64,000 bases of DNA from Actinospica acidithermotolerans. GTDB taxonomy: Bacteria > Actinomycetota > Actinomycetes > Streptomycetales > Catenulisporaceae. The stretch is taken from the NCBI RefSeq assembly GCF_018139625.1, contig NZ_JAGSOH010000022.1:1-64000 (forward strand), written 5' to 3'. Below, in pieces: positions 25,286-27,231 of this stretch. The stretch's first letter is position 1. Every line of letters begins with the position of its first letter. A program made the translations under genes and the position numbers. The notes beneath the pieces were generated by a model, which made no database searches, was not told where the DNA came from, and saw nothing but the letters and a program-made list of their open reading frames with translations.

Positions 25286-25358
25286 GCGGGCAGGCTAGCG
25301 CAGGAAGATCCGCCGCCAATTGCGGGCGGCGGGCCTGCCAGCGCGTTATCGTGCTGAC

Positions 25359-26354
25359 ATGCTCGCTCCGCCGAAGGGCCTGACTGAGGACGCGCTGGCC
25401 GCGACGCTCTCGCGCGGCTGGGGGATCGAGGTCGCGGGCCTCGAGTACCGGGCCGTGGGCTTCGGCAGCCACCACTGGGAGGTCGTGGAGGCCGGCGGCG
25501 CGCGCTGGTTCGTCACGGTGGACGAGCTGGCCAGGCGGCGGCACGCGGCCGACGAGACGTACGCGCAGGTCCAGGCGCGGTTGGCGGCCGGGATCGGGGC
25601 GGCGCGGGCGCTGCGGAACCTCGGCGAGCGCTACGACTTCGTGGTCGCGCCGGTCCCCTCCCTCGACGGCGCCGTACTGATCCCGGCGCGCGAGGGATTC
25701 TGCGTGGCGGTGTATCCGCTGCTGGAGGGCGAGAGTTTCCGCTGGGGCGAGTTCCGCTACGAGGACCAGCTGCCCGCCGTCGTCGCCATGCTGATCGACG
25801 TCCACAGCGCGCCCCCCGGCTCGGCGCGCGGCGCGATGGCCGACGACTTCGGCATCCAGATGCGCCACGAACTCGAACGAGCCCTCGCCGACGGCACCGC
25901 CGTCACGGATCACGGCCCGTACTCGATCCCGCTCGGCGCCCTGATCAGCCACCACGAGCAGTCCGTCACCGCCGCGCTCAAGCGGTACGACGCCCTGGTC
26001 TCGCGCGTGGGCCCCGATGCGCACCGCGTCCTCACCCACGGCGAGCCGCACGCCGGGAACACGATGTTCACGGCCGAGGGCTGGAAGCTCATCGACTGGG
26101 ACACTGCCCAGGTCGCCCCGCCCGAGCGCGACCTGTGGAACCTCGACCCCGGCGACGGCTCGGTGCTGCACGAGTACGCCGAGGCCACCGGCTACGCGCC
26201 GAACCACGAGCTCATCGACCTGTACTCGCTCCGCTGGGACCTCACCGACCTCGCCGTCTTCGCCGGCGAGTTCCGCCGCGAGCACGGCGACGACGCGAAC
26301 ACCGCGAAGGCGTGGGTGAGCGTCCAGAGCGTCATCGAGGCGCTCGGCCGCTAG
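25359..26354 (+). CDS. Aminoglycoside-phosphotransferase-like kinase
   Basis: 331 residues. APH-family fold: N-lobe ending near the WFVTVDEL strand, catalytic loop RVLTHGEPHAGNTMF (HGE in place of HGD, with the Mg-binding Asn), and DFG-equivalent WKLIDWDTAQVAPPERDLW. The pattern is that of the spectinomycin-phosphotransferase-like, APH(9)-type group, most members of which have no shown resistance role. ATG 25359; no strong ribosome site. Its TAG stop (26352-26354) lies within the target-site copy at the left end of a palindromic element, so the insertion seems to have spared the coding sequence exactly. Confidence 0.85.
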   Translation: MLAPPKGLTEDALAATLSRGWGIEVAGLEYRAVGFGSHHWEVVEAGGARWFVTVDELARRRHAADETYAQVQARLAAGIGAARALRNLGERYDFVVAPVPSLDGAVLIPAREGFCVAVYPLLEGESFRWGEFRYEDQLPAVVAMLIDVHSAPPGSARGAMADDFGIQMRHELERALADGTAVTDHGPYSIPLGALISHHEQSVTAALKRYDALVSRVGPDAHRVLTHGEPHAGNTMFTAEGWKLIDWDTAQVAPPERDLWNLDPGDGSVLHEYAEATGYAPNHELIDLYSLRWDLTDLAVFAGEFRREHGDDANTAKAWVSVQSVIEALGR

Positions 26355-26519
26355 GCCGTGTCTTCAAACTTGCGTTGGATCAGGCCGCGGCGTCTGACGC
26401 GTGCGCTCGCAAGGCGCAGGGGCGGGCGCATACTCGGTCGTCTGCAACCGCCCCTGCAACGCCGCGAGCGTGCGTGGCAGGCGTCGCGGACCCGGCGATA
26501 GTTTGAAGACACGGCCTAG
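26351..26519. mobile_element. Palindromic MITE-like element with 20-bp terminal inverted repeats
   Basis: CTAGGCCGTGTCTTCAAACT (26351-26370) is repeated exactly in inverse at 26500-26519. The outer CTAG on each side is probably the target duplication. The 161-bp interior has no transposase but further inverted repeats: GCAGGGGCGG (26416-26425) with its complement (26448-26457), and CGCTCGC (26404-26410) with GCGAGCG (26464-26470). The whole element can fold back. Perfect termini without a gene are the mark of a non-autonomous element mobilised by an IS transposase in trans; CTAG target duplication fits an IS5/IS427-like family. Confidence 0.85.
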
Positions 26520-26598
26520 GCGCTGCTGACCGGATCGGTCCGCTCCCGGACCGGATTCGATCTACCGCGACACCGGCTCCGGTGGACAGAATCGTCGT

Positions 26599-27231
26599 AT
26601 GCCATCCAACAGAGCTTTGATCGTCATCGACGTCCAGGAGTCCTTTCGCGCGCGGCCGATCTGGGCCACGATCTCCAACCCGGACATCGTGGACGATGTG
26701 AACCGACTCGTGGCGCACGCGCGCGGCGCTGGGGACCTCGTCGTGTGGGTGCTGCACTCCGAGACGGGCAGCGGCGGCGTGTTCGATCCCGCCTCCGGCT
26801 TCGTCCGCTACATCGAGGGCCTCTCCCCCGAGGCCGGCGAGCCGCAGATCACCAAGACCTCGCACAACGCGTTCACCACGACGAACCTCGGCCAGATCCT
26901 CACCGCGCACGGTGTGCGCGAGGTCGCGATCTGCGGCATCCGGACCGAGCAGTGCTGCGAGACCACGGCCCGGGTCGCGTCCGACTTCGGGTACGACGTC
27001 ACCTTCGTCATCGACGGCACGGCCACGAACCCGATCCCGCACCGCGCGCTGGTCGAGTCCGTCGGCGACCCGGACGCGCTCACGGCCGAGCAGCTGCTCG
27101 CCGATCCGCGCACCTTGTCCGCGCAGGCCGTGATCGAGCGGGTCGAGTACGCGCTGGCGGGGCGCTTCGCCCGGATCGCGACCGTCGACGAAGTGGTCTC
27201 CGGCGCGCTGGACGAAGTCGGAGTACGCTGA
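26599..27231 (+). CDS. Isochorismatase-family cysteine hydrolase
   Basis: 210 residues. Asp in ALIVIDVQESF, Lys in PQITKTSHNAFTTTNL and Cys in ICGIRTEQCCETTARVASD form the expected triad (two adjacent Cys). Longer than the other isochorismatase-like protein in the window and not a close copy of it. Followed after 7 bp by the GlxA-type regulator, so the two form an operon; AraC/DJ-1 regulators frequently neighbour such hydrolases. ATG 26599. Confidence 0.88.
   Translation: MPSNRALIVIDVQESFRARPIWATISNPDIVDDVNRLVAHARGAGDLVVWVLHSETGSGGVFDPASGFVRYIEGLSPEAGEPQITKTSHNAFTTTNLGQILTAHGVREVAICGIRTEQCCETTARVASDFGYDVTFVIDGTATNPIPHRALVESVGDPDALTAEQLLADPRTLSAQAVIERVEYALAGRFARIATVDEVVSGALDEVGVR

Follow-up and report, generated by a model that had tools for sequence, protein, structure and literature searches.

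The 64,000-nucleotide stretch of Actinospica acidithermotolerans DNA analyzed here (the window) carries, at the stop codon of an APH-family gene, a MITE apparently moved by a resident IS5-type transposase. A MITE with a helper of this type is an already known kind; what is new is a conserved, strand-asymmetric core combined with exchangeable ends. In the account that we favor with high confidence, the element is a non-autonomous MITE mobilized in trans by an IS5-family transposase, inserted at the TA of CTAG-like targets where stop codons are harmless sites, and belonging to a family that shares a core and has one apparently constrained strand. Specifically, the transposase (DUF4096/DDE_Tnp_1) would act in trans on the ~15-bp ends of the MITE and insert it at the TA of CTAG-like targets. 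On insertion into a TAG stop, the leading G of the element and the TA duplication would always restore TAG, so that stop codons would be harmless sites, one of which is occupied by the window copy. In the wider family, a fixed internal-loop core would travel with changing terminal repeats and keep a one-strand hairpin.

The region 26351–26519 is a near-palindrome with the layout CTA-G...C-TAG and nested inner inverted repeats, bounded by a perfect 20-bp inverted repeat (26351–26370 vs. 26500–26519, a span that includes target bases). The DNA fold of 26330–26540 reaches −80.9 kcal/mol vs. −52.6 ± 3.3 kcal/mol for dinucleotide shuffles (z −8.5), and none of the 200 shuffles matched it. The 163-bp element contains no transposase frame, and the frames overlapping it are spurious only. 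Hence, the 20-bp terminal repeats, nested palindromes, and gene-free interior described in the original prediction are all present. The same prediction took CTAG for the target copy: CTAG does stand at both ends, but the duplication is only the TA within it, as shown by copies with differing flanks (e.g., GTAG on the left with CTAG on the right, or TTAG on the left with CTAA on the right). The element therefore starts with the G of the left-hand CTAG and finishes with the C of the right-hand CTAG, and the MITE proper, a member of subfamily A, covers 26354..26516 (163 bp) on the + strand, i.e., the strand with GCAAGGCG, as delimited by the copy alignment, the target analysis, and a CM match of 168.6 bits. 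It is flanked by the left (26352..26353) and right (26517..26518) TA copies, to which no strand is assigned. The terminal repeats common with a resident IS (see below) comprise 15 bp each, at 26354..26368 (+ strand, perfect inward to 26370) and 26502..26516 (− strand, perfect from 26500). Further inside lie the two halves of the conserved internal-loop core, GCAAGGCG at 26409..26416 and CAACGCNGC at 26457..26465 (both + strand), which are invariant in alignment A2, the rows of which were picked by part of this motif. They enclose a central hairpin (26417..26456, + strand) that varies among subfamilies with compensation, as seen in the alignment and its covariation.

The upstream frame (25359..26354, + strand; ATG start, with TTG at 25320 also possible) matches Pfam APH (PF01636, E 7e-13). 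Its stop TAG at 26352–26354 includes the left TA copy and lies within the left CTAG; the protein is undisturbed, as had been proposed, and a pair of trpC genes in congeners behaves alike (see below). Downstream of the element, the frame list and a domain search place an isochorismatase-family gene (26599..27231, + strand) codirectional with the APH gene.

The search for further copies, suggested together with the original prediction, located 28 occurrences of the element, including partial ones, in its own genome (G000; 7.9 Mb, 422 contigs), and ten other copies there are 98–100% identical to that of the window. Two subfamilies, A (GGCCGTGTCTTCAAAC) and B (GGGCGTGTTTTGAAAC), coexist in this genome; they have a common core, and differ in both ends and the centre. 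Elsewhere, types A and C are found in the congener G001, type D in the congener G002, and type E in G004, a genome of the same family. A tandem pair of partial copies is seen in G000:C379 (L034, about 1500–1750). In one more case, MITEs reside at the end of one and the same gene in G000 (L027, type B ends) and G001 (L090, type A), which is ambiguous between two insertions at one site and an in-place replacement.

Evidence of movement comes from a sister copy. In G001, the TAG stop of trpC (indole-3-glycerol phosphate synthase, Pfam IGPS) is occupied by the copy L112; the orthologous trpC site in G000 is empty, and the proteins of both genomes end in MRRGR. This was the one empty site to emerge from a comparison of the joined flanks of the copies with the collected loci rather than with whole genomes. 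An empty site was found for the sister copy and not for the window copy, since the APH gene is absent from both G001 and G002. Taken together, the repeated copies, the IS with equal ends, and the empty site of the sister copy support reading the palindrome as a foldback MITE. The rival view of an ordinary conserved segment that belongs to the APH gene and lacks mobility has a negligible probability: the sole point for this view is the position beside the stop codon, and it is already refuted by the other copies, with 28 places in G000, the empty site of the sister copy, and presence in 127 of the 147 sampled genomes of the order.

An IS with equal ends, the other search proposed with the original prediction, was found for type A. 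It lies in G000:C368, is intact, 1027 bp long, and flanked by CTA...TAG, and thus uses the same C|TA|G target as the MITE; its ends, GGCCGTGTCTTCAAAG, are the same as those of the MITE over 15 bp on both sides. The open frame of its transposase (287 aa) displays DUF4096 and DDE_Tnp_1 domains, placing it in the IS5 family. This IS is the probable source of the transposase. Comparison by eye revealed no evident likeness between the interiors of the MITE and of the IS, which argues against the MITE being a plain deletion of the latter. The pattern search of G000 for type B ends returned 18 matches, all of them belonging to MITEs and none to an IS, and the pattern searches of G001 and G002 for types C and D detected no IS, the extra matches being 54-bp core-less forms or solo ends. 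Hence, a helper is known for type A only, as the genomes bearing MITEs of types B, C, and D yielded no IS with those ends. Core-less forms of 49–54 bp retaining both ends (L229:2415-2468, L232:2423-2471, L233:2291-2344, L235:2374-2427, and L236:2460-2513) look like deletions between GCGTCG repeats spanning the hairpin.

In 12 genomes of the related genus g4, 11 of the 30 IS5-transposase loci have ends matching at no fewer than 15 of 18 positions, of a like style and with C|TA|G, or a sequence close to it, as the target. In one such case (G034), the IS ends GGGCGTTTCTTTCGGATC are close to the ends of the resident MITE, GGCCGTGTCTTTCGGATC. Many of the IS5 transposases of g4 match as two adjacent pieces (residues about 8–119 and 114–287), as if read through a frameshift, e.g., at G047:C1:1305625-1306466. 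In G002, a 1.7-kb IS, which we take to be IS1182-like, encodes a 526-aa DDE transposase (DUF772, DDE_Tnp_1_6) and is inserted inside the terminal CTAG of three MITE copies (L224:13480-15194, L225, and L226), MITE ends thereby offering insertion sites to a different IS that targets CTAG. This 1.7-kb repeat was considered as a MITE-mobilized unit and rejected, because it has its own ends, AAGCGTCATGAAAAT, in CTAG and a different DDE transposase.

Landing in stop codons is a habit of the family. With a gene rule based on frame composition, 61 copy sites with enough flank were classified into 32 stop codons, 24 intergenic positions, and 5 positions within genes, compared with 20, 58, and 16, respectively, for 94 general CTAG sites from a 400-kb sample; the excess of stop codons is significant (Fisher p 1.0e-4; 3e-4 without the interiors). 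By genome, stop-codon sites amounted to 14/26 in G000, 14/19 in G001, 4/14 in G002, and 0/2 in G004, and under a laxer gene rule to 16/28, 16/22, 4/14, and 1/2, respectively. The target is scarce, with 103 CTAG in 400 kb, where the base composition predicts 1079 and a Markov estimate 357. The habit can be put down to three circumstances: the rare target is often a stop, the leading G of the element rebuilds TAG, and harmful insertions are presumably lost, such purging likely adding to the bias.

The many copies directly 3′ of stop codons, together with the long and very stable palindrome, would also be compatible with the host keeping the hairpin at each place as a terminator or a stabilizer of the mRNA 3′ end, the mobility being a thing of the past; for the hairpins of bacterial MITEs such as NEMIS and the ERIC of Yersinia, effects on mRNA have been reported (PMC2229807, PMC2267715). 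This explanation appears improbable. The copies face the stopped gene either way (16 vs. 17, with 4 more having genes on both sides) although one strand folds much better, and such an even orientation does not suggest selection as a 3′-end signal. The near-identical copies and the empty site point to recent movement, and no intrinsic terminator, i.e., a G+C-rich stem followed by a T run, was matched in 26200–26700, which was counted against the terminator as well. No sigma-70-like promoter was matched in the same interval either.

Conservation was assessed in alignment A1, comprising 28 elements found by DNA similarity alone: 13 selected Actinospica copies, 2 from G004, and 13 from g4, two insert-bearing g4 elements being left out. 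The core is most alike among the elements (mean pairwise identity 83%), ahead of the ends (62%; 24 distinct end sequences) and the centre (57%). The core GCAAGGCG..hairpin..CAACGCNGC is kept, and in the ends and stems a change on one side is compensated on the other: two-sided changes were recorded for 44 of 61 pairs, and the covariation score of 0.445 exceeded both the shuffled (0.153 ± 0.008) and the slid-partner (0.055–0.089) controls, the behavior looked for in a test for structured RNA. Since pairing of the terminal stem is also needed for transposition, the core and the centre weigh more as evidence of RNA. A search of Rfam with the element returned no family at the gathering score, the sole match being a tRNA elsewhere on L270.

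The substitutions are not symmetric between the strands. Read on the strand with GCAAGGCG, A1 displays G.U in 37 columns vs. A.C in 6 (p 1.6e-6), corresponding to 216 vs. 5 cells for RNAalifold pairs and to 218 vs. 29 cells with mismatches filled in; of these 29 A.C cells, 24 fall at a single internal-loop column. The newer changes within subfamilies keep the same direction (33 distinct G.U vs. 14 A.C, p 0.008). Wobbles of this kind might stem from strand-biased mutation (C to T on an exposed strand), with template switches from one arm to the other producing the compensation. Long palindromes are liable to such switches, and many paired changes are found among copies within a subfamily (48 cells changed on both sides). 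We consider this explanation rather unlikely: summed over the subfamily lists, the newer C>T and G>A changes (36/25) and A>G and T>C changes (52/40) are similar in number, yet G.U outnumbers A.C by 33 to 14, and correction between the arms would erase wobbles, whereas the same G.U pairs persist across genera.

Constraint on the motif strand is likewise suggested by the folding energy. The predicted RNA fold is more stable on the motif strand in all 28 elements of A1, in 27/27 hold-outs from the phylum-sample search, in all 24 orientable elements among 25 sampled order-wide (the 25th, L297, is without the motif), and in all 14 orientable elements among 15 chosen from 30 loci of a second search (R2, see below), with the reservation that the members share ancestry and so are not independent, and that a structure model served to find the hold-outs. 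In random 163-nt windows, the two strands commonly differ in energy as well (sd of the difference 10.2 kcal/mol; 6.9% differ by at least 18 kcal/mol); hence, it is the constant sign that counts, not the size. From these base-pair statistics, the motif strand seems to be constrained either as RNA or as single-stranded DNA, for which the strand signal would be the same. In L297, GCAAGGCG is missing and the left half of the core is altered; the core of L057 is altered similarly.

The family extends far beyond Actinospica. Of 60 genomes searched at the DNA level, 30 contained matches, the own genome included. In g4, the elements are 160–175-bp palindromes between TA copies, with the same core and other ends; two further ones carry an insert (212 and 214 bp), and clear TA-flanked ends were discerned at 15 of 26 g4 loci. 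A model of 162 positions (R1) matched 127 of the 147 genomes of the order, many of them with 10 or more copies, and 17 of 396 genomes in a sample of the phylum, 7 of these outside the order. The core model R2, built from 22 elements selected by the motif and drawn partly from the R1 matches in the phylum sample, raised the latter count to 30 of 396, of which 20 are outside the order, and reached other actinobacterial families. The ends of the out-of-order relatives are wholly different, e.g., TAGTGCACCTC.

Streptomyces plasmids bear the same family; a plasmid search with L220 matched Streptomyces, and its short matches in the Roseobacter group, located inside an antitoxin gene, were judged to be due to chance, as were two weak matches to L270. 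Plasmid searches with L209 and L269 gave no match, nor did a phage search, nor did the g4 element L050 in 5,426 E. coli genomes. A 23-base core pattern matched three IMG/VR contigs, where the elements are 160–166-bp palindromes with TATAGT or CTAG ends, the same internal loop, and a more stable motif strand, in surroundings of 40, 62, and 33% GC. The phage proteins of two of these contigs (Clostridia-like) have their nearest relatives in a Ruminococcus gnavus phage and in gut or Faecalibacterium phages; the proteins of the third indicated no clear host. Looser motif patterns, used as a control, yielded from viral contigs matches that for the most part looked like chance, with neither strong terminal repeats nor a strand bias of constant direction. 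Searching IMG/VR for the ends of L269 or L271 brought up no additional contigs, so that the case for the mobility of these two is made by their terminal repeats alone. A copy with AGGGCTGTCCCGTAATCC ends, as in the g4 genomes, is present on a 49.7-kb viral contig (L313:1256-1315). Thus, elements of the family may travel on phages. A broader view, which we put forward tentatively and rate at somewhat below an even chance, would be that of an ancient, phylum-crossing family of mobile hairpins of about 160 bp, in which the fixed part, an asymmetric internal-loop core (GCAAGGCG / CAACGCNGC), is strand-constrained as RNA or single-stranded DNA and recognized by some factor, and replaceable ends let one and the same hairpin be carried by different transposases. 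The ends would then be of many IS5 types and also of TATAGT and TAGTGC types, depending on the lineage.

Among the known systems, the window element has the features of a MITE: it is short, contains no transposase gene, has terminal repeats and a TA duplication, and occurs in many copies; the ends shared with a resident autonomous IS (type A only) and the empty site (sister copy) are further such features. Terminal repeats and the C|TA|G target are common to the MITE and the IS5-family ISs with DUF4096 and DDE_Tnp_1, which differ from it in possessing a transposase gene and show no evident common interior. REP/BIME elements, associated with RAYT transposases, resemble the family in being imperfect palindromes with strand-specific features; unlike them, the window family has true terminal repeats and the TA duplication.

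The Correia/NEMIS elements of Neisseria are described as 100–155 bp long, with terminal repeats, a TA duplication, a long hairpin, and a proposed link to the IS5-family IS1106 (PMC3898611, PMC2649163, PMC2229807). By description, the likeness to the window family embraces size, terminal repeats, TA duplication, hairpin, and the IS5-family link; the phylum and the ends are different, and the exchange of ends around a fixed core and the one-strand wobble bias belong to the window family and do not figure in the Correia/NEMIS descriptions consulted. The ERIC and YPAL elements of enterobacteria are short intergenic sequences with one long stem-loop found in several genera (PMC2267715, PMC2229807), a pattern also seen in the window family; they are not the same by sequence, since L050 remained unmatched in the E. 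coli genomes. MITEPsy1 of Pseudomonas syringae is 100 nt long with 18-nt ends, inserts after CTAG or YTAA with a reported 4-nt duplication, and reportedly derives from ISPsy2 (PMC3189936); likened on the basis of that description, it has a similar target and differs in the ends and the duplication length. The open-licence literature yielded no paper describing such a MITE in Streptomyces or Actinospica, nor one on the core.

In the usual picture, MITEs are decayed derivatives of a single IS, and their interiors are dispensable. In the present family, in contrast, the interior is the best conserved part, both ends are replaced together in matching form, and the wobbles point to one strand. The account also explains the cost-free gathering of such elements at TAG stops. 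Overall, a repeat is now described in 127 of the 147 genomes sampled from an order that includes many antibiotic producers; if the account is true, it would represent a mobile element that is under selection for its folded strand and can switch transposases, a case open to testing.
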